NCBI RefSeq assembly: GCF_006716115.1
Contig: NZ_VFOO01000001.1
Coordinates: 1,488,001-1,552,000 of the forward strand
DNA: 64,000 nucleotides
Direction of reading: 5' to 3'
From: Subtercola boreus
Lineage (GTDB): Bacteria > Actinomycetota > Actinomycetes > Actinomycetales > Microbacteriaceae
The position numbers and the translations under genes are program-made. A model generated the notes under the pieces. That model saw nothing but the letters and a program-made list of their open reading frames with translations. It was not told the DNA's origin and ran no database searches. This document shows positions 4,141 to 13,103 of the stretch, one piece after another (position 1 is the first letter of the stretch; each line of letters begins with the position of its first letter).

Positions 4141-5577
4141 TCAGTCCGCGCTCGACGGGCGGCCCGCGGTGGCGGGGCCGGCCGGGGTCGCCGCCGTGGC
4201 GCGGCCGGCCGCGGTGGCCGCCGTGGCGGGGCCAGACGGGGTGGCGGGGCCGGACGGGGTGGGAGCCGCGCCGGGGCCGGGCGCGGGGGCCGCCGTGGCG
4301 GGGCCGGGCGGGGTGGCGGCCGTGGCGAGCAGCATTCGGTACAGGTCGCGGTGGCTCCGGGCGGCGGATGCCCAGCTGTACGTCCGCGCGAGCGCACGCC
4401 CCTGCTCGGGATCCCACTCCGTCGCACTCCCGTCGCCTCGCAGGCTCCCACCATCGCTCGCGCTCGATCGAGTGGGCGAAAGGGGCCCTAAAACGCTGGT
4501 TTTGGGGCCCTTTTCGCCCACTCGATGGTTTGCGGGGGTGGGGGCGAGAGGGAGGGGGGCGCGAGGGAGGCGGGCGGGGGCGCGGAGCGCCAGGAGGGCG
4601 GCCAGCGCGGCGGCGATGCCCGCGACATCCGACGCGTAGGTGACCGCCGCGCCGAACACCTCGCGGAGCACCGGCAGGTCGCGCGCGACCACAGGCACGC
4701 CGGCCGCGAGCGCCTCCATCGCGGCGAGCCCGAAGCCCTCTTTCGTCGAGACGAACGACAGCACGGCGGCACCCGCCACGAGGGACGGCAGGTCGCCGTC
4801 GTCCACGGTCCCGAGCAGCTCGTACGCCACCCCGAGCTCCGCGGCCCGCGCCTCGAACCGCGACCGGTAGTCCGAGTAGTCGAACAACGTCTCGCCGCCC
4901 GCGAATACCAGCCGGGCATCCGGAACCGCGGCCTGCACCCGCGCGAACGCCTCCAGCAGGTCGATGCTGCCCTTGCGTGGTTCGATCCCACCGACCGCGA
5001 GAACGTAGCGCCCGAGCGACTGCTGCCAGCGGGTGACGGCGGCGACAGCGGCCGGATCGGCCGGGGAGGCGGCGGCCTCGAAGCGCGCTGAGTCGACGCC
5101 GTTCGGGATGACCGTGGCGGTGCGCCCCCAGCCGGCCTGCACCTCTCCCGCGACGGCGGCCGACACGCAGACCAGCGCGAGCGGGCGCACGATCGCCCGC
5201 TCGTGGCAGGCGACGAGCTCGGGCGTCGTGAAGGTGTCGAGGTGGTGCACCGTGCGGATCGAGCGGTCGACCGCATTGGCCGAGATGCAGTCCTGGGCGT
5301 GCACGATGTCGTACACCTCGGGGGTGAAGGATGCCCGGAGGCTCTCGATCGAACGGAGGATGCGCTCCCCCACCGTCTCTCCGTCTCGCGCGGCGAACGG
5401 CACGACCCGGAGCCCCACCCGCGGGTCGACCCGGCGGAAGAAGGCCTGGTCGCCGCCGCGCCCGAGGGTCCAGACGTCGACCTGTTCGCCGGCCGCGGCG
5501 AGCGCTTCGGCGAGGGCGAGGGTGTGCACGACGCCGCCGCGCGGCTTGGTCGAGTAGGTGAGCAGCGCGATGCGCAC
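4141..5577 (-). CDS. GT4-family glycosyltransferase, MSMEG_0565-like
   Basis: This is a cytosolic GT-B glycosyltransferase of 478 residues starting with GTG three bases after the upstream nitrilase stop. The N-terminal Rossmann half starts RIALLTYSTKPRGGVVH. The C-terminal half has the GGIEPRKGS nucleotide-site loop and the EGFGLAAMEALAAGVPVVA motif with its E-x7-E pattern. A glycosyltransferase of this family is a regular member of actinobacterial Nit1C clusters; its acceptor is unknown. After about residue 330 the normal fold is interrupted by a Pro/Ala-rich stretch and by about 20 residues encoded by a 60-bp hairpin. A family-like C-terminal helix (RTYSW...RDLYRMLL) then resumes, followed by a Pro/Ala/Thr/Gly-rich tail of about 65 residues. 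Confidence 0.88.
   Translation of the reverse strand: MRIALLTYSTKPRGGVVHTLALAEALAAAGEQVDVWTLGRGGDQAFFRRVDPRVGLRVVPFAARDGETVGERILRSIESLRASFTPEVYDIVHAQDCISANAVDRSIRTVHHLDTFTTPELVACHERAIVRPLALVCVSAAVAGEVQAGWGRTATVIPNGVDSARFEAAASPADPAAVAAVTRWQQSLGRYVLAVGGIEPRKGSIDLLEAFARVQAAVPDARLVFAGGETLFDYSDYRSRFEARAAELGVAYELLGTVDDGDLPSLVAGAAVLSFVSTKEGFGLAAMEALAAGVPVVARDLPVLREVFGAAVTYASDVAGIAAALAALLALRAPARLPRAPLPLAPTPANHRVGEKGPKTSVLGPLSPTRSSASDGGSLRGDGSATEWDPEQGRALARTYSWASAARSHRDLYRMLLATAATPPGPATAAPAPGPGAAPTPSGPATPSGPATAATAAGRATAATPAGPATAGRPSSAD
4163..4325. repeat. GC-rich imperfect tandem repeats encoding the glycosyltransferase tail
   Basis: Degenerate units built on GTGGCGGGGCCGG-type words repeat across this stretch. 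On the - strand they encode a Pro-Ala-Thr-Gly tail at the C terminus of the glycosyltransferase. The composition is far more biased than in the neighbouring coding sequence, which suggests replication-slippage expansion rather than a folded domain. Confidence 0.6.
4467..4526. repeat. 60-bp near-perfect inverted repeat lying in frame inside a gene
   Basis: The arms at 4467-4494 and 4499-4526 are 28 bases each and match at 26 positions around the 4-base loop GCTG. The element spans exactly 60 bases (20 codons), so it keeps the glycosyltransferase frame open. It encodes about residues 351-371, in a region where family members have no such insertion. The core is GTGGGCGAAAGGGGCCC. It looks like a palindromic (REP- or MITE-like) element embedded in a coding sequence. 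No second copy was seen in the window. Confidence 0.85.
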
Positions 5578-5580
5578 GGC

Positions 5581-6507
5581 TCAGACCAGCCCGGCCAGCG
5601 GGACGGATGCCCGGGCGGGCAGATCCGCGGCGACACCAGCGGGCGCACCCACCCCGCCGCCGAGGATCCCCGGGTGGTACGCCCCCACCGCCCGCTCCTG
5701 CAGGTGGTGCAGCTTCCGACGCGCACGCCCGACCTCGTGCTGCACGTCGATGTGCGCCACCGCGAGCGCCCCCTTGTTCCACGTCTTCGCGAGCACGTCG
5801 CCGCCCGGCCCGACCACCTTCGCCTGTCCGAGGAACCGCAGCCCGCCCATCACCCCGGTCTGGTTCGACGAGACGAGGATCACCTGGTTCTCAGCCGCCC
5901 GCGCGCAGTCGTAGAGGTCGAACAGGCGCGACTGTCGATCCTGCGGCAGCCGCTCCGCACGGTTCGTCGTGCTCGCCGGCCACGCCGACAGGCAGGCGAT
6001 GATCTCCGCCCCGTCGAGGGCGAGCGAGCGGGCCGCCTCGGGGAAGGTCTTGTCGTAGTCGATCAGCATGCCGATCCGGCCGACGGGCGTGTCGAAGGCG
6101 GTGAACGAGTCGCCGTGGTCGTACACGAGCGACTCCCCGAGCGGCTGGTGCACCTTGCGATGCACCCCCAGCACCCCGGTCGAGTCGACGCACACGGACG
6201 TGTTGTAGAGGTGCCGGGCATCCGCGACCACGACCTCCTCGGTGAAGGCCAGGCACACCACCATGTCGCCGGCCCACTGGATGATCTGGCTGATCTCCGG
6301 CCCGTCGATCGCCACCGGCGGCGGCAGTTCCGCGGGGTCGGGGCTCGCCAGGCTCGCGAGGTAACCGCCGAGCGTCGCGTCGGGGAAGACCAGCAGGTCG
6401 ACCTCCTGCGAGCGCGCGTCGGCGATGATTCCTTCGATCTTCGGCATCGCGCGATCGATGTCGCGCCCGAAGTGCGCGGCGACGGCGGCCAGCGTGATTT
6501 CTGCCAT
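5581..6507 (-). CDS. Nitrilase-superfamily paralogue lacking catalytic residues
   Basis: This carbon-nitrogen hydrolase fold protein of 308 residues is clearly paralogous to the nitrilase at 8234-9115, sharing for example HRKVHQPLGE, FDTPVGRIG and FPEAARSLALDGAEI. The superfamily uses a Glu-Lys-Cys triad. Here Lys118 is kept, but the Glu position reads Asp43 (FPDATLGGY) and the nucleophile position reads Asp150 (LIDYDKTFPE). The intact paralogue has Glu44, Lys124 and Cys156. The protein is otherwise full length with good codon use, which suggests a retained non-catalytic or altered role, perhaps as a partner subunit. The ATG at 6507 is chosen for homology with the paralogue start; the ribosome site is weak. 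Confidence 0.9.
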   Translation of the reverse strand: MAEITLAAVAAHFGRDIDRAMPKIEGIIADARSQEVDLLVFPDATLGGYLASLASPDPAELPPPVAIDGPEISQIIQWAGDMVVCLAFTEEVVVADARHLYNTSVCVDSTGVLGVHRKVHQPLGESLVYDHGDSFTAFDTPVGRIGMLIDYDKTFPEAARSLALDGAEIIACLSAWPASTTNRAERLPQDRQSRLFDLYDCARAAENQVILVSSNQTGVMGGLRFLGQAKVVGPGGDVLAKTWNKGALAVAHIDVQHEVGRARRKLHHLQERAVGAYHPGILGGGVGAPAGVAADLPARASVPLAGLV

Positions 6508-6538: not shown

Positions 6539-7939
6539 TCAGGCTCCCGCTGGGGACGAGACGGTCTGGCGCACCGCCGTCGACTCCTCCGCGTCATCCG
6601 GTGCCGTACCCGCTGGTGCCGCGGCGCCGGCCACCGCAGCCGACCCGCCCAGCGCTCCGCCGATGGCCCCCGCCACGTATTCCGCGTCGCGCGCGATGCC
6701 CGCGAACCGGCCCGATCCCCAGGTGTGCAGCCACGGCAGCCCGAGGAAGTACAGCCCCGGGATCCCGGTCACGCCTCGCGTGTGCGTCGGCTGGCCCAGC
6801 CCGTCGAACACGCCGACCCGGATCCAGCTGTAGTCCGCCCGGTAGCCGATCGACCAGATGATCGTCGAGACCTCGTTGATGGCGAGGTCGAGTTCGGTGG
6901 CTTCGAACGGTGGATGCCACACCGGCACATAAGGCGCCTCGGTGGGTGCCTCGATCCCCTCCCGGGCGATGTAGCGGTCGATGTCGTTCTTGATCGACTC
7001 GGCCACGGAGTCGGCGTAGTCGAGCGAAGCCGCGAGGTTCGGGGCGAACTGCAGCGAGGTGCCGTTGGCGCGCTTCAGGCGGCCGTAGAGCCGCATGCCT
7101 TCGAGCGCGAACTGGCGGAGGTCGATGTCCCGTCCGCCGTCGCGACCGGTGAAGTAGTGGTTCGTCTTCTCGCGCGCAGCGAGCCCGCCGGGCTGGAGCT
7201 GCACGGGGATGTCGTAGACGCCCATCTCGTTCAGCCAGTCGAGGCTGTCGCGGCCCCGGTAGAAACGCGGCGCGCGCGGGGCACCGCCCACCGCGAGGTG
7301 CACTTTCCGGCCCTCGAGGTGCAGGTCCTCCGCGATCTGGGCGCCCGACTGTCCGGTTCCGACGACCAGCACGGCACCGGGCGGCAGTGCGCCGGCGTTC
7401 TTGTACTCCGAGGAGTGCACCTGCGTGATCCACGGGGGCAGGCGTTCGGCCGAGGCCGGGATGATCGGCTTGTGGTACCCGCCGGTGGCGACGATCACGT
7501 TGTCGGCCGTCATCGGGCCGGCCGAGGTGCTGAGCGCGAAACCCCCGGCCGCCCCCTCGGTGAGCTGGTCGACCGACACGTTCTCCCGCACGGGCGCGCC
7601 GAAGAGCTCCGCGTACTCCCGCACGAAGTCGTACACGAGGTCGCGTTTCATGAACCCGTCGGGGTCGTCGCCGGCGTACTCGTGGCCCGGAAGCCGGCAC
7701 TGCCAGTTCGGGGTGACGAGCGTGAAGTTGTCCCAGCGCCCGTCCTTCCATTCGTGCGCGATCGTGCCGCGTTCGAGCAGCACGTGCTCGATTCCCTGCT
7801 GGGTGAGGTGCCAGCTGGCCGAGAGTCCGGCCTGGCCGGCGCCGATGATGACGACGGCGTGGTGCTGAGGGCTGGCAGGGTCGACGGCGGACTCGGTGGT
7901 CACCTCGACGGCTCCGGATGCCCGGCTCTCCCCGCTCAC
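6539..7939 (-). CDS. MSMEG_0569-type flavin-dependent oxidoreductase
   Basis: This is an FMO-like two-dinucleotide-binding flavoprotein of 466 residues. The FAD site VVIIGAGQAGLS lies near the N terminus and the NAD(P)H site VVGTGQSGAQ near the middle, with an ATGGYH hinge between them. Such a flavoprotein is a conserved Nit1C member (NitH in Pseudomonas). The chosen GTG overlaps the preceding stop as GTGA (7936-7939), so translation is probably coupled; the longer open frame upstream is antisense to nothing useful and was not used. An Ala-rich tail of about 45 residues follows the fold. The natural substrate is not established. Confidence 0.9.
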   Translation of the reverse strand: MSGESRASGAVEVTTESAVDPASPQHHAVVIIGAGQAGLSASWHLTQQGIEHVLLERGTIAHEWKDGRWDNFTLVTPNWQCRLPGHEYAGDDPDGFMKRDLVYDFVREYAELFGAPVRENVSVDQLTEGAAGGFALSTSAGPMTADNVIVATGGYHKPIIPASAERLPPWITQVHSSEYKNAGALPPGAVLVVGTGQSGAQIAEDLHLEGRKVHLAVGGAPRAPRFYRGRDSLDWLNEMGVYDIPVQLQPGGLAAREKTNHYFTGRDGGRDIDLRQFALEGMRLYGRLKRANGTSLQFAPNLAASLDYADSVAESIKNDIDRYIAREGIEAPTEAPYVPVWHPPFEATELDLAINEVSTIIWSIGYRADYSWIRVGVFDGLGQPTHTRGVTGIPGLYFLGLPWLHTWGSGRFAGIARDAEYVAGAIGGALGGSAAVAGAAAPAGTAPDDAEESTAVRQTVSSPAGA

Positions 7940-8241
7940 GGGTTCACCCCGAGCGGCGGCACCATCGCGAGAACCTCGACGCGGGCATCCGGTGCCGCGG
8001 CGAAGCGCGACGCAGCCAGCGCGATCTCGCTCTGCTGCTGCCGGGCCGACGTGCATTCGAAACCGTACTTGGCCCGAACCCGTTCGCTTGCCAGGTCGAG
8101 GGCGGTGTTCGTGCGGTTGACGAACTCGGCGAGCGGGTAGCTCTCCCCTGCGAGCAGGTGGTCGTGCATCACGAGCGACGGCGAGTAGCAGTCGGCTACG
8201 CTGCCGTCGGGCCAGCGCACGGTGAACGTCATCTCAGGCAT
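7936..8241 (-). CDS. MSMEG_0570-family nitrogen starvation protein
   Basis: This small protein of 101 residues matches the MSMEG_0570 family. It opens MPEMTFTVRWPDG and holds the conserved YSPS-(V)-x-H-D-x-L...G-x-(S)-Y-P-L-x-E-F pattern and an ERVRAKYGF(E)CTSA segment. No enzymatic function is established; NitG-type small proteins are constant members of Nit1C clusters. The gene overlaps the nitrilase stop by 8 bases and the flavoprotein start by 4 bases, so all three are probably translated together. Confidence 0.88.
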   Translation of the reverse strand: MPEMTFTVRWPDGSVADCYSPSLVMHDHLLAGESYPLAEFVNRTNTALDLASERVRAKYGFECTSARQQQSEIALAASRFAAAPDARVEVLAMVPPLGVNP

Positions 8242-9115
8242 GGGAGACCTCCGATTCGGTCACGCGGTAGGTCGCGGGCATCCGGTCGCGCAGGTGGAAC
8301 ATCGAACGGCGGGCGGTGCCGAGCAGCTCTGTGACGTCGACGGAGGCCACGGCCATCCCGCTCGCCGTGCCCGTCGTGGCGAGGATGTCGCCACCCGGCC
8401 CCACCACCTTCGCGTTCGAGACGAACCGCAGCGACCCGAACGTGCCGCTCTGGTTGGACGCGACCCAGACGATCTGGTTCTCGAGTGCGCGGGCCTGGTC
8501 GAAGAGGTTGAAGCGCTTCGTCCAGCGGTCCTCGCTGAGGTCGTCGCTCGAAGCCGTCTGGGAGGCCGGCCAGGCCGAGATGCACACCACGATCTCCGCG
8601 CCGTCGAGGGCGAGCGAACGCGCCGCCTCGGGGAAGGCCTTGTCGTAGCAGATCAGCAGGCCGATGCGGCCGACGGGGGTGTCGAACGCCTCGAACTCCA
8701 CGCCCGCGGCGTACGACATGTTCTCCCCCAGCGGCTGGTGCACCTTGCGGTGCACCCCGAGCACTCCCGACCCGTCGAGGGCGACAGCCGTGTTGTACCG
8801 GAGGTCGCCGTCGGCTTCGCAGAATCCGACGACCACGACGATGTCGCCCGCCATCGCGATCACCCGCGCGAGCTCCGGCCCATCGAGCCGCAACGCCGGC
8901 GGGAGCGAGTCGGGTCGGCGCTTGAGGGTCTCCGCGACATCCCGCCCACCGCCGAGGCTCGACAGGTACCCGCCGAGGGCCGCTTCCGGCAGGGCGAGGA
9001 GCGCGACGCCCTGGGCCCGTGCCTCGGCGAGCAGTGTGCCGATCAGGTGGTAGTTCTGCTCGAGGTCGCGGCCGAAGTTCTCGGCCACCGCCGCGACGCG
9101 TACGTCGTTGGTCAT
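8234..9115 (-). CDS. Nitrilase / carbon-nitrogen hydrolase with intact triad (NitC-like)
   Basis: This is the Nit1C nitrilase of 293 residues. The Glu44 (LPEAALGGY), Lys124 (HRKVHQPLGE) and Cys156 (LICYDKAFPE) triad is complete. Family members hydrolyse nitriles or amides to release ammonia. In Pseudomonas fluorescens NCIMB 11764 the homologous cluster supports growth on cyanide as nitrogen source. The ATG overlaps the upstream stop as ATGA (9112-9115). Its inactive sister copy lies three genes downstream, so the duplication is inside the operon. Confidence 0.93.
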   Translation of the reverse strand: MTNDVRVAAVAENFGRDLEQNYHLIGTLLAEARAQGVALLALPEAALGGYLSSLGGGRDVAETLKRRPDSLPPALRLDGPELARVIAMAGDIVVVVGFCEADGDLRYNTAVALDGSGVLGVHRKVHQPLGENMSYAAGVEFEAFDTPVGRIGLLICYDKAFPEAARSLALDGAEIVVCISAWPASQTASSDDLSEDRWTKRFNLFDQARALENQIVWVASNQSGTFGSLRFVSNAKVVGPGGDILATTGTASGMAVASVDVTELLGTARRSMFHLRDRMPATYRVTESEVSHA

Positions 9116-10605
9116 GCTCGTCCCAATCCGGTGACCGTGGATTCGACCACGGTCGTCAGTTCTCCGTCAGGCCAGCGCAGGCGGACGCCCCGCTGGTGTG
9201 TCATGGTGCCGCACTCGGCCGAGGCGGCGAGCGGTGGATGCCCGGCGGCGGCCGTGCGCGAAGACGAACCGGCCGCAGCGACGACTCCGGGCATCCCGGG
9301 CATCCGGCTCGCACCCGGTGCGTCGGCCGTGACCATCCCGAACCCCGGGAAGCAGGTCAGCCAGTCGGCCATCCCGGAAGCGCCAGGGCGCGGGATGTCG
9401 GCGACACTCAGCTCGGCCCCGACACCGGATGCCTCGGCCATCATGCCGATCGTGCCGACAAGGCCGGCCATGCTGATGTCCTTCGCGGCAGCGGGCCGGG
9501 CGGTCGGCACCAGCGCACCGAGCGCGCGGAGCTCCTGCCCCGAACGGCCGGACGACGAGTCCCACTGGGAGCCGTCGTACCCGCGCCGCCACCCTCCGCT
9601 GAGGTCGGCGGTCACCGTCACGGCGTGTCCGGCGCGGGCGCCCCCACCCCGCACGGGAGAGTCGGTGCGGCCGAGGGCCGTCACGCTGAGCGACGCCGGC
9701 ACGCCGAGCTGGGTGTGGCCACCGAGCACCGGCACGCCCCACGCTTCCGTCGCCTCCCGGAGCCCGGACAGGATGCGCCGGGCGAACGACGCGTCCCGAG
9801 CACCGAGCGAGTCCAGTACTCCCACAGGGGTCGCCCCCATCGCGCTGATGTCGTTCAGGTTCACCAGGATGGCGCACCAGCCAGCCCACTCGGGGTCGCG
9901 CTCCACCATCGCGGGCAGGATCGCGTCGCACGCGGCGATCACGTCGGTGCCGGGCACGGGCGCGCCGTCGTCGCCGACGTAGTCGGGCCCGCCGAGGGAG
10001 AGCGGATGCGCGTTGACCCAGCCGCCGAACGGGTCGAGCAGCGCCTCCAGGTGCGCCTTCGCTGCGTCGGATGCCCGTTGGATCCGCCCGATCGGCCAGC
10101 GCAGTCGGGCGTGCGTGACACCGGCGACGGTCGTCTCACCGAGTCGTTCCCAGCCGAGCCGCGCGAACATCCGTTCGGCTGCGGGCTGCACCGTGGCCTC
10201 GAACCGCAGCACCCCGCGGGCTTCGGCGTGAGCGCACGCAGCCTGCACGAGAGCAGGGCCGATGCCGAGCTGGCCGCGGGCCGAGCGGGCGACGACCAGG
10301 CGCGATCCCGTCCACCAGCCGAGGTCGGTGTCCGGCGTGGCCGGGGCGAGTCGCACCCCGCCGAGCACGGTGCCGTCGAGGGCCCGCGCGACAAGCACGA
10401 CCGTGCGCGCGTCGAGGTCGAGGTCGTCGAGGTCGTGCCCCTCGAACAGCCCCTGCTCCTCGACGAACGTCTCCCGGCGGAGCACTCTGTACGCCTGCAC
10501 TTCTGCGGCGTCGGCCTCGTGCACCAGGTACGGCACCGGAACGGGACCGGCTCCGGCCAGCGGTGCCCGCGGGGCCCCTGTCAGGAACGGGACGTCGACG
10601 CTCAT
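9112..10605 (-). CDS. GNAT acetyltransferase - AIR synthase-like fusion (MSMEG_0567; sll0786 + sll0787)
   Basis: This two-domain protein has 497 residues. Residues of about 20-175 form a GNAT fold (RRETFVEEQGLFEGHDLDD, then the RGQLGIGPALV acetyl-CoA loop and FARLGWERLGE). Residues from about 185 form a PurM/AIR-synthase-like domain with DAILPAM, NLNDISAMGATPVGVLD and GGHTQLG. In cyanobacteria these are separate genes; the fused form is known from mycobacterial MSMEG_0567. The ATG at 10605 overlaps the radical SAM stop as ATGA. The acetylated substrate and the ATP-dependent reaction in the pathway are unknown. Confidence 0.92.
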   Translation of the reverse strand: MSVDVPFLTGAPRAPLAGAGPVPVPYLVHEADAAEVQAYRVLRRETFVEEQGLFEGHDLDDLDLDARTVVLVARALDGTVLGGVRLAPATPDTDLGWWTGSRLVVARSARGQLGIGPALVQAACAHAEARGVLRFEATVQPAAERMFARLGWERLGETTVAGVTHARLRWPIGRIQRASDAAKAHLEALLDPFGGWVNAHPLSLGGPDYVGDDGAPVPGTDVIAACDAILPAMVERDPEWAGWCAILVNLNDISAMGATPVGVLDSLGARDASFARRILSGLREATEAWGVPVLGGHTQLGVPASLSVTALGRTDSPVRGGGARAGHAVTVTADLSGGWRRGYDGSQWDSSSGRSGQELRALGALVPTARPAAAKDISMAGLVGTIGMMAEASGVGAELSVADIPRPGASGMADWLTCFPGFGMVTADAPGASRMPGMPGVVAAAGSSSRTAAAGHPPLAASAECGTMTHQRGVRLRWPDGELTTVVESTVTGLGRA

Positions 10606-11666
10606 CAGGCACCCGCCGTCTTCAGGATGCTGCACGCACCGCAGGCTGCGCAGCCGGCCTGCTGGTCGGCCCCGTGCATCCCGGCCGCGACCAGCGACGC
10701 TCCGACGCGGCGCGAGATGTCCTCGAGCACGAGCCGGTTCGGCGCGGGAACGTGGTCGACATCGGTCGCGAGGGTGCCCTTCAGCGGCCGGAACGGAACG
10801 ACGAACGGGTACACCCCCATGTCGATGAGTTCCTGCGCGCCGGCCACCATCTCGTCGGGGTCTTCGCCCATCCCGACGAGCAGGTAGGTCGAGACCTGGT
10901 TGTGGCCGAACACGCGAACGGCCTCACGCCAGGCCGCGCGGTACTCGTCGAGGCTGACCGAGCTCTTGCCGGGCATCCACTTCGCCCTGACGTCGTCATC
11001 CATCGACTCGACGTGGATGCCGATCGAGCGCGCCCCCGCCTCGTAGAGGTCGGTGATCGTCTGCAGGTCGCCGGGCGGCTCGCACTGCACCTGGATGGGC
11101 AGGTCGGGCAGCACGGCCCGCACAGCCTTCACGCAGCGTGCGAGATGCTTGGCGCCGCGATCCTTTCCGTTCGAGGTGCCGGTGGTCATCACCATCTGCT
11201 GGATGCCGTCGAGCTCGTATGCCGCGAGCGCCACCTCGGCAATCATCGCGGGCGTCTTGACCGCGATCGTCGAACCCGACCGGAGCGAGGCCTCGATCGC
11301 GCAGAACCGGCAGCGGTCGGTCTCGCCGTACCGGATGCACGTCTGCACGACCGTCGTGGCGAGCACATTCGCGCCGTGCAGCCGCGCGATCTGCTCGTAC
11401 GAGACTCCATCGGCCGTCGACAGGTCGTAGAACTTCGGCCGTGTCACCGGCACGACGTCGAGACCCATGTCCGCGCCATCCAGAAGCAGTCGACCGTTCT
11501 TGACCAGGTACGGACTGTTCGGATTCTGCGGGATGGCCGCCTGCTCGCCACCGAACATCACGTGCGCGTCGTCGCTCGGGCCGGCACCGGCCTGCCGCGT
11601 GACAGGAGCGTCGACCCGGATGCCGCGGATCGCGACATCCACTCGGGTGGAGAGGGCGTTGGACAT
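10605..11666 (-). CDS. MSMEG_0568-family radical SAM protein
   Basis: This predicted radical S-adenosylmethionine enzyme has 353 residues. The iron-sulfur cysteines are C110, C119 and C122 in a C-x8-C-x2-C arrangement (CIRYGETDRCRFC) instead of the usual C-x3-C-x2-C, as is typical of this family. A second Cys cluster (CAACGAC) near the C terminus may hold an auxiliary cluster. A TTGTSNGKDRG motif fits SAM binding. It corresponds to NitD of Nit1C clusters. The gene is separated from the Sll0783-type gene by only 6 bases. Confidence 0.93.
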   Translation of the reverse strand: MSNALSTRVDVAIRGIRVDAPVTRQAGAGPSDDAHVMFGGEQAAIPQNPNSPYLVKNGRLLLDGADMGLDVVPVTRPKFYDLSTADGVSYEQIARLHGANVLATTVVQTCIRYGETDRCRFCAIEASLRSGSTIAVKTPAMIAEVALAAYELDGIQQMVMTTGTSNGKDRGAKHLARCVKAVRAVLPDLPIQVQCEPPGDLQTITDLYEAGARSIGIHVESMDDDVRAKWMPGKSSVSLDEYRAAWREAVRVFGHNQVSTYLLVGMGEDPDEMVAGAQELIDMGVYPFVVPFRPLKGTLATDVDHVPAPNRLVLEDISRRVGASLVAAGMHGADQQAGCAACGACSILKTAGA

Positions 11667-11672
11667 GCCGGC

Positions 11673-12200
11673 CTAGAAGTTGTAGGTCGAGTTGATGATG
11701 GCGCCCTTGCGGGCGTAGTGGATGAGGGCATCCTGAACGTCGAGCGGGTGTGCCGGGATGGCGCCCTCGATCAGGTCCTCCTCGCGGAGGCCGTGCAGCG
11801 ACAGGCCGAACCGGCAGACGAAGACCTTGCCGCCCTCCTTGATGAACGTCTCGAGCGAGCCGTTGATGTTCTGCTCGCCCGGGAACGCGCTGTCGCCGGT
11901 CGTCGGGAAACCGCGGGTCGCCATCGCGTTCATCGCGCCGGGGCCGTAGAAGTAGATCGCCGACTCGAAACCCTTGCGGAGCGCACGGGTCGCCTGCAGG
12001 ATCGCCACGAAACTCACGGATGACTCGTGGGCGATGCCGTGCACGAGGGTGAAGTACGACTGGCCGGGCTCGGCCTGGTAGTCGGGGAAGATCTTGGTCG
12101 ACCCGTAGATGTTGCTGCCCTTCGGGAGCGACGGGTGCGCGATCTCGGCGAGCGACGTGGCGATGTTCTCGGTGATGGTGGTTTCGATGTCGTCTGACAC
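11673..12200 (-). CDS. MSMEG_0572/Sll0783-family nitrogen starvation response protein
   Basis: This is a 175-residue member of the Sll0783/MSMEG_0572 family, an early Nit1C gene. It has a DsrE-like look (LVHGIAHESSVSF...YFYGPGAMNAMATRGFP) and a conserved VFVCRFGLSLHGLREEDLIEG block. Sll0783 is induced by nitrogen starvation in Synechocystis; the molecular function is unknown. Translation starts with GTG, preceded by AGAAGGAG about 8 bases upstream. The gene ends with TAG. Confidence 0.92.
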   Translation of the reverse strand: MSDDIETTITENIATSLAEIAHPSLPKGSNIYGSTKIFPDYQAEPGQSYFTLVHGIAHESSVSFVAILQATRALRKGFESAIYFYGPGAMNAMATRGFPTTGDSAFPGEQNINGSLETFIKEGGKVFVCRFGLSLHGLREEDLIEGAIPAHPLDVQDALIHYARKGAIINSTYNF

Positions 12201-12229
12201 GGTGGTTCTCCTTCTGTTGGGGTGGAGCT

Positions 12230-12269
12230 CAGGCGGGTCGGTGGATCAGGCGGGTCAGTGGATCAGGCG
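12230..12269. repeat. 17-bp tandem repeat in the operon leader gap
   Basis: CAGGCGGGTCGGTGGAT at 12230-12246 is followed at once by a second copy with one change (12247-12263) and a 6-base partial copy. It lies between the amidohydrolase stop and the Sll0783-type gene, just upstream of that gene's ribosome site on the - strand. Confidence 0.75.
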
Positions 12270-12278
12270 TACGCAGTT

Positions 12279-13103
12279 TCAGGAATACAGACGTGCAAAG
12301 TTCTCGCGCAGAAACAGGTCTGCGAGTTCGGTGTCCTTCACCGCGGCGTGCATGCGGGCGTACTCGCCCTCGTGGTCGCCCCACGGGGAATCGCTGGCGA
12401 ACAGGATCCGGTCCTCTCCGAAACCGCGTCGCTCGATCTCCTGCACGAGCCAGCGCGGAGCGAAGCCGATGGTCCAGCTGGTGTCGGTGTAGACCTTCTT
12501 GCCGGCGGCGATCCAGTCGAAGAGCCGGCCGCCGATGAGCTTCATGTTGCCGCTCATACCGCCGCCGAGGTGCACGAGGTGGATCTTGACGTCGTCGCCG
12601 TACTTCTCGACGAGCGTGCCGACCTGGTCGATGTCGGAGGCCCCGCCCGGCGACGTGTGCACGTGCACCACGAGGTCGTGGTCCTTCGCCGTCTGGAAGA
12701 TGCGGTCGAGGGCCGGCACCGACGCTTCGTCGGTTGCACTGCCGCCGAGCAGGAAGCTCGTCTTCAACGCCCGCACGCCCTGCTCCCCCGCCAGCTTCAG
12801 CGCGTTCTCGGTGAGCAGGATGTCCTGCGGCCGGGGCGACACCCAGAGCCCGCAGACGATGCGCTCGTTCTGCTGGGCCGCCTCGATGGCGAGCGGATTC
12901 AGATCGAAGGCCGCCGACGCGACCGGAACACCGTAGTTCGGCAGCACCAGGGCGCGATCGGTCTGTTCGGCATCCACATCGGCCATGAACTCGGCGATCG
13001 TCGCCCGCGCCGTCGTGTCGGGGCTGATGGCAGGCCCGCCGTAGAATGGGTACGCCGGGAGAACACCGATGTGCCGGTGGGCGTCTGAAGTGGTGGGGGC
13101 CAT
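12279..13103 (-). CDS. Amidohydrolase-superfamily protein, first gene of the Nit1C operon
   Basis: This metal-dependent hydrolase of the amidohydrolase-2 type has 274 residues. Visible ligand motifs are an N-terminal H-x-H (DAHRHIG, His9 and His11), VVHVHTSPGG, HLVHLGGGMSGN, and a late Asp in LFASDSPWGDHEGEY. Such a gene accompanies several actinobacterial Nit1C clusters, but its substrate is unknown; decarboxylation or hydrolysis are both family reactions. The ATG at 13103 has no clear Shine-Dalgarno sequence. The upstream region carries the phased GAAAC half-sites, so this is taken as the operon's first gene. Confidence 0.87.
   Translation of the reverse strand: MAPTTSDAHRHIGVLPAYPFYGGPAISPDTTARATIAEFMADVDAEQTDRALVLPNYGVPVASAAFDLNPLAIEAAQQNERIVCGLWVSPRPQDILLTENALKLAGEQGVRALKTSFLLGGSATDEASVPALDRIFQTAKDHDLVVHVHTSPGGASDIDQVGTLVEKYGDDVKIHLVHLGGGMSGNMKLIGGRLFDWIAAGKKVYTDTSWTIGFAPRWLVQEIERRGFGEDRILFASDSPWGDHEGEYARMHAAVKDTELADLFLRENFARLYS

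Follow-up and report, generated by a model that had tools for sequence, protein, structure and literature searches.

In a conserved family of actinobacterial nitrilase-superfamily paralogues, the Cys nucleophile appears to have been replaced by Asp once, long ago. This Asp-type family is real, widespread, old and conserved, and one of its members lies in the window, the 64,000-nucleotide stretch of the Subtercola boreus genome analysed here, together with a Cys-type paralogue. The function of the Asp copy is probably not that of the textbook enzyme; the reading preferred here, with a probability of roughly 0.55, is that it would be a non-hydrolysing, ligand-binding paralogue serving the active amidase, either as a partner subunit or as a ligand-responsive regulator. 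A natural, widespread and strictly conserved Cys-to-Asp family within a textbook superfamily of Cys hydrolases offers a clean case for asking why a dead-looking active site is kept. No described Cys-less nitrilase family was found in the literature searched, which lay mostly outside subscription journals.

Both genes belong to an operon-like row on one strand, which consists, from its first gene onward, of the following:

11673 to 12200, minus strand: MSMEG_0572/Sll0783-family nitrogen starvation response protein, first gene of the cluster (TIGR04044, 249.2 bits, cut-off 109.85).
10605 to 11666, minus strand: MSMEG_0568-family radical SAM protein (TIGR04043, 500.7 bits, cut-off 303.7).
9112 to 10635, minus strand: GNAT and AIR-synthase-like (AIRS) protein of the MSMEG_0567 family (TIGR04050, 438 bits, cut-off 312.2; TIGR04045, 98.2 bits, cut-off 68.45).
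8234 to 9115, minus strand: Cys-type C-N hydrolase, the Cys copy (293 aa; E44, K124, E131, C156).
7936 to 8241, minus strand: MSMEG_0570-family nitrogen starvation response protein (TIGR04042, 130.3 bits, cut-off 79.85).
6539 to 8056, minus strand: MSMEG_0569-family flavin-dependent oxidoreductase (TIGR04046, 644.8 bits, cut-off 498.35; true start uncertain, domain from near 7858).
5581 to 6507, minus strand: Asp-type nitrilase-fold paralogue, the Asp copy (308 aa; D43, K118, E125, D150; PF00795).
4141 to 5577, minus strand: MSMEG_0565-family glycosyltransferase, directly downstream of the Asp copy (TIGR04047, 435.4 bits, cut-off 259.85).

For all cluster genes except the two hydrolases, the family models score above their NCBIfam cut-offs. 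At this level, all six companion families of Nit1C are present, and the Sll0783-type, radical SAM, GNAT, AIRS, 0570-type and flavin oxidoreductase genes are shared with Nit1C (PMC1199592) and with the Pseudomonas nitBCDEFGH genes (PMC11049912), a match made partly from the descriptions available in those sources. Nit1C was defined with subfamily-1 nitrilases (Podar 2005, PMC1199592), and in this respect the window differs: the subfamily-1 (Nit6803/Sll0784) nitrilase is lacking from the cluster, which has two amidase-like C-N hydrolases instead. TIGR04048, the model for Nit1-type nitrilases, gives the two hydrolases 36 and 39.3 bits against a cut-off of 502.6, and scores so far under the cut-off rule out a true Nit1 identity for either. 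Judged by these profile scores, the partner of the Asp copy is an amidase-like C-N hydrolase, not a Nit1 nitrilase. The cut-off of the same model is passed by none of 197 sampled genomes of the class, the nearest being one at 484 bits, and a match at E 1e-60 is absent from the window's own genome. An earlier note on this DNA had described a Nit1C operon with an active nitrilase; neither the name of the cluster nor that of the active partner holds as worded, and the cluster is best called Nit1C-like without Nit1, because its C-N hydrolases are amidase-like. Its gene content identifies it as the Nit1C-like "gpr" type of Mycobacterium smegmatis, the actinobacterial counterpart of Nit1C: the gene families are the same as those of the gpr operon MSMEG_0565-0572 (PMC6039565), and all eight gene types of that set, with its two C-N hydrolases, are found in the window. 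A search with a GlnR-type consensus gave no match at 12200-12300 and 36 matches overall against 33.3 expected from shuffles.

Regarding the equivalents in M. smegmatis, the cluster of Mycolicibacterium stellerae (L121) is informative, with the order 0572, Cys copy, 0570, oxidoreductase, radical SAM, 0567, Asp copy, glycosyltransferase. Because this order fits MSMEG_0572 down to MSMEG_0565 one to one, gene order alone suggests that MSMEG_0571 is the probable equivalent of the Cys copy and MSMEG_0566 that of the Asp copy. MSMEG_0566 is named an aliphatic amidase in PMC6039565, the accessible part of which makes no mention of a missing Cys. If the inference from gene order is right, the amidase label that papers give to genes of the MSMEG_0566 type is a misnomer, and the actinobacterial versions of Nit1C use an amidase-like pair, or the Cys one alone, compared with one nitrilase in other bacteria. 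The M. smegmatis operon, both hydrolase genes included, is reported to be induced on nitrogen starvation under GlnR (PMC4222082, PMC4617892, PMC6039565); the values given for the rise on nitrogen starvation or limitation are 48.04 for msmeg_0571 and 8.94 for msmeg_0566 (PMC4222082), with 4.06 and 2.96, respectively, in PMC4617892. A mutant lacking the whole operon is described as sensitive to peroxide, with a reduced NADPH/NADP ratio when starved of nitrogen (PMC6039565), and a Synechocystis sll0783 mutant fails to raise NADPH/NADP and likewise has a lower ratio in this condition (PMC3901256).

The Asp-type reading frame runs from an ATG at 6507 to a stop at 5581 on the minus strand, which the earlier note did not name, and encodes 308 aa. 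It and the minus-strand frame at 9115-8234 have 52% identity (148/285 aligned columns) and are, as that note had stated, full-length paralogues in one operon. Its membership of the nitrilase superfamily is apparent from both the domain profile and the fold. PF00795 (CN_hydrolase) scores 113.4 bits in a profile search (cut-off 23.2), and the AlphaFold2 model (pLDDT 90.4, pTM 0.88) has an ordinary nitrilase-superfamily fold, with TM values of 0.71-0.80 by query length to superfamily structures among the 50 matches listed. Among those matches, the best structural ones are D-carbamoylase and N-carbamoylputrescine amidohydrolase entries, and these two enzymes and the PH0642-type amidases (5h8i, 6lcg, 1j31) are among the closest solved relatives listed by sequence and fold. 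All three are known as Cys enzymes. In contrast, the Asp copy has no Cys where those amidases have theirs. Several structure titles name engineered C-to-A or C-to-S variants, and 6ypa, a related amidase entry, is titled "C146A variant".

The catalytic Glu-Lys-Cys triad of the superfamily is complete in the Cys copy, where the codons are GAA for E44, AAG for K124, GAG for E131 and TGC for C156. The Asp copy reads D-K-D at the same positions, with GAC for D43, AAG for K118 and GAC for D150; in a profile alignment with the Pyrococcus structure 3ivz, Asp43 falls on a Glu and Asp150 on a Cys. Codons and alignment thus agree with the assignment made in the earlier note, which overlooked E125 (GAG), the second catalytic Glu and fourth catalytic residue, retained in the Asp copy. 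Since the codons at the nucleophile position are TGC and GAC, the change from Cys to Asp amounts to two base changes, as had been pointed out.

A second nitrilase-fold gene was sought in relatives and the triad columns were aligned, as the earlier note had proposed, giving 113 distinct Asp-type orthologues. Proteins were extracted from the window and from loci L033-L122 and L153-L199 (253 in total, 238 distinct, of which 113 are Asp-type and 125 Cys-type) and assigned to a type by the better of two profiles, whose scores lie 48 to over 200 bits apart in the loci listed. Among relatives, an Asp-copy orthologue of at least 59% identity is present in 7 of 99 genomes, the window's own included; in 49 of 394 sampled genomes of the class, a profile search gave matches with E values of 1e-50 or below; and from a genome-collection scan the best 80 of 471 relatives were taken, a set biased because some of its members were found by a search pattern containing Asp150. 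Position 150 is Asp in 112 of the 113 distinct Asp-type proteins, Ser in one and Cys in none, and both Lys118 and Glu125 are found in 113/113. Among distinct Asp-type proteins retrieved independently of that search pattern, Asp150 is likewise present in 36 of 36 (one from the window, two from plasmids, six from relatives and 27 distinct ones from the class sample). Position 43 is occupied by Asp in 103 of the 113, by Gly in seven, by Tyr in two and by Gln in one. For the 125 distinct Cys-type proteins, Lys, the second Glu and Cys are found in 125/125 and the first Glu in 123, the two rows without it being L170, which runs off the contig end, and L197, which matches only from profile position 61. 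The sole Asp-type member with Ser at position 150 is that of L116 (7989-8816), where the Cys copy is intact. Two Rhodococcus plasmids, fetched from four strong matches, have the cluster order of the window; among 50,697 phage records, weak matches only were obtained, in six.

The Asp type forms one group on every tree built, with support of 93, 39 and 97. The value of 39 belongs to a tree from which positions 43 and 150 were removed along with the adjacent columns, with eight outgroup rows after two long ones were dropped; the Asp/Cys split thus persists when these columns are removed. The value of 97 belongs to a tree that retains the catalytic columns and also includes relatives from other classes that carry the Cys. 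Because the ten outgroup hydrolases carry Glu and Cys, and because five Cys-bearing proteins from other classes of the phylum (G574, G594, G614) branch outside the Asp group, Cys is the ancestral state, the exact root being unsure. A tree of Asp-type proteins only has four changes at position 43 and one at position 150.

Selection on the two copies was compared through dN/dS. In the closest pair, with Subtercola boreus (L035), the Asp copy has 0.074 and its Cys-type paralogue 0.075; with a second strain (L037) the values are 0.084 and 0.129, and with the more distant Marisediminicola (L057) 0.277 and 0.273, the Asp copy of L045 being left out since its match ran over a stop codon. The description of a conserved non-Cys paralogue under purifying selection is therefore upheld, with Asp150 in 112/113 and dN/dS of 0.07-0.08 in the two closest pairs. 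Catalytic residues have been lost in a conserved family under selection, which is one of the marks of a pseudoenzyme. In L037, a Subtercola boreus relative, a repeat rich in Gly, Pro, Ala and Thr is inserted in frame into the Asp copy (7607-8533), at about residue 96 of the window's protein.

Beyond the triad, H12, D150, T154, R183, Q192, L195, A205, T217, Q228, K245 and L266 are near-fixed in the Asp type and rare in the Cys type. Seven of these sites (T154, R183, Q192, L195, A205, T217 and Q228) are near-invariant in the Asp type and common to less than 10% of Cys copies, and the column of L195 holds Arg in 123/123 Cys copies. Lys118, Glu125, Asp152, Lys153, Trp176, Arg191, Asn207 and Asn215 are common to both types. 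We read this pattern as a pocket that would have been both maintained and retuned in the Asp type.

The distribution of the genes was followed in the 49 genomes with matches (of 394). Thirty-three carry the Asp copy, in 32 cases together with the Cys copy, and 16 carry the Cys copy alone. Only in G125 does the Asp-type copy (L183, 5842-6702) stand by itself, with D, K, E and D kept; neither a Cys copy nor a radical SAM gene was found in that genome. Five tested genomes have no Cys gene at the Asp locus; four of them have a Cys-type profile match of 486-506 bits elsewhere, judged by profile score only, and the fifth, G125, has none. These five exclude L095, one more locus without a Cys gene on the examined stretch. 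The glycosyltransferase directly follows the Asp gene in 115 of 121 loci holding the latter, and the full gene order of the window recurs in 73 of 138 ordered loci, some contigs being counted twice. In partial distance correlations over 72 loci and 21 gene pairs, the oxidoreductase and the radical SAM protein give the highest value (0.44), the Asp copy and the oxidoreductase the second (0.32), and the Asp and Cys copies 0.14. Mutual information between the Asp and Cys copies shows no excess: 20 of 73,980 position pairs exceed Z 6, the second-lowest rate among eight gene pairs in what is a weak test (105 loci, Neff 54).

Taking these results together, the preferred reading is that the Asp copy would no longer perform thioester (Cys) hydrolysis. 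The thioester route usual in the superfamily depends on the Cys thiolate and is closed in its absence, and drift of the first acid, seen in the four changes at position 43, is expected if Cys-type hydrolysis is gone. The pocket, in which Lys118 and Asp150 are fixed, may bind a ligand, whether the substrate or product of the pathway or a related amine, acid or amide; by such binding the Asp copy would serve the active amidase under nitrogen starvation. The service could be that of a partner subunit setting specificity or activity, or that of a ligand-responsive regulator. Paralogous nitrilase-fold subunits acting together are described for sorghum NIT4A/NIT4B (PMC5154151) and for mixed plant nitrilase helices, in which inactive C182A subunits steer the specificity of active ones (PMC6214922). 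These plant systems differ in that they are branch-1 nitrilases whose inactive subunits are laboratory mutants and not a natural Cys-less family. Against the preferred reading stand the solitary Asp copy in G125, the closer agreement of Asp-copy distances with the oxidoreductase than with the Cys copy, and the lack of excess mutual information between the two hydrolases.

A further point against the preferred reading is that complete fixation of Asp at the site of the nucleophile is also what one would see for a new catalytic residue. The Asp copy would then be an active enzyme with a Cys-independent Asp chemistry that evolved once in actinobacteria, in which Asp150 acts as nucleophile or as acid/base with the help of Lys118 and Glu125, and it would catalyse a separate step of the Nit1C-like pathway. 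The fixation of these three residues, the new near-invariant sites and the retention of the solitary copy in G125 without a Cys partner are all consistent with this possibility, which is nevertheless doubtful: with Gly, Tyr or Gln at position 43 in 10/113 there is no fixed general base there, and the drift at this position argues mildly against it. Literature searches showed no Asp-nucleophile member of the superfamily, and we know of none.

A heteromer of the Asp and Cys copies, proposed in the earlier note, is plausible but finds no support in coevolution, where the Asp-Cys pair rises no higher than other operon pairs. In its strict form, the Asp copy would be a structural subunit of the active amidase assembly whose own pocket is unimportant. 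The near-obligate dependence on the Cys copy speaks for such a role, as do the direct adjacency of the two genes in some loci (e.g. L110, L166, L171, L176, L178-L181) and the heteromeric complexes of sorghum NIT4A/NIT4B (PMC5154151). However, strictly kept Lys118, Glu125 and Asp150 and a set of new near-invariant sites are needless for a mere scaffold, the Asp copy is missing from 16 genomes with the Cys copy, and G125 has the reverse; a purely structural subunit is therefore unlikely. Asp-Cys coevolution as a sign of contact was rejected, there being no excess over other operon gene pairs in this test of weak power.

A role of the Asp copy as partner or sensor of the MSMEG_0569 flavin oxidoreductase instead of the amidase is very improbable. 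The association itself is conspicuous: counted above its family cut-off, the oxidoreductase is present in 31/33 genomes with the Asp copy and in 2/16 without it (31 with both, 2 and 2 with a single one, 14 with neither), its distances rank second of the 21 pairs, and its gene lies directly upstream of the Asp gene in the widely shared window order. On a radical SAM tree of 44 rows, from which five of the 49 genomes were omitted for want of a radical SAM protein on the examined stretch, the Asp copy nevertheless changes three times and the oxidoreductase twice, and their link comes down to one shared event, so that it was not taken as main evidence. Each gene also occurs without the other: the oxidoreductase in G070 and G134 and in loci L041 (G073), L226 (G594) and L228 (G574), and the Asp copy in G119 and G125; L052, L078, L080, L090 and L096 are Asp loci with no oxidoreductase on the examined stretch.

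Simple decay, for which the earlier note had named Cys-150 orthologues, relaxed selection and frameshifts as signs, is ruled out along with sequencing error by 113 distinct orthologues, with Cys in none, that form one group and by the low dN/dS of the two closest pairs.

Two further forms of the cluster were observed. In family f36, twelve reduced clusters (L185-L190, L192-L194, L196, L198 and L199) consist of 0572, radical SAM, 0567, Cys copy and glycosyltransferase, with no Asp copy, 0570 or oxidoreductase on the examined stretch. In other classes of the phylum, L226 and L228 hold Nit1C-like clusters with the Cys copy, the 0570 type and the oxidoreductase, and neither an Asp copy nor a glycosyltransferase was detected on the stretch examined. 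In the window, an Amidohydro_2 gene (13103-12279) lies just upstream of the first gene of the cluster, and the cluster lies between two minus-strand genes of the AMP-binding, acyl-CoA synthetase-like kind, at about 4093-2750 and 15687-14131.
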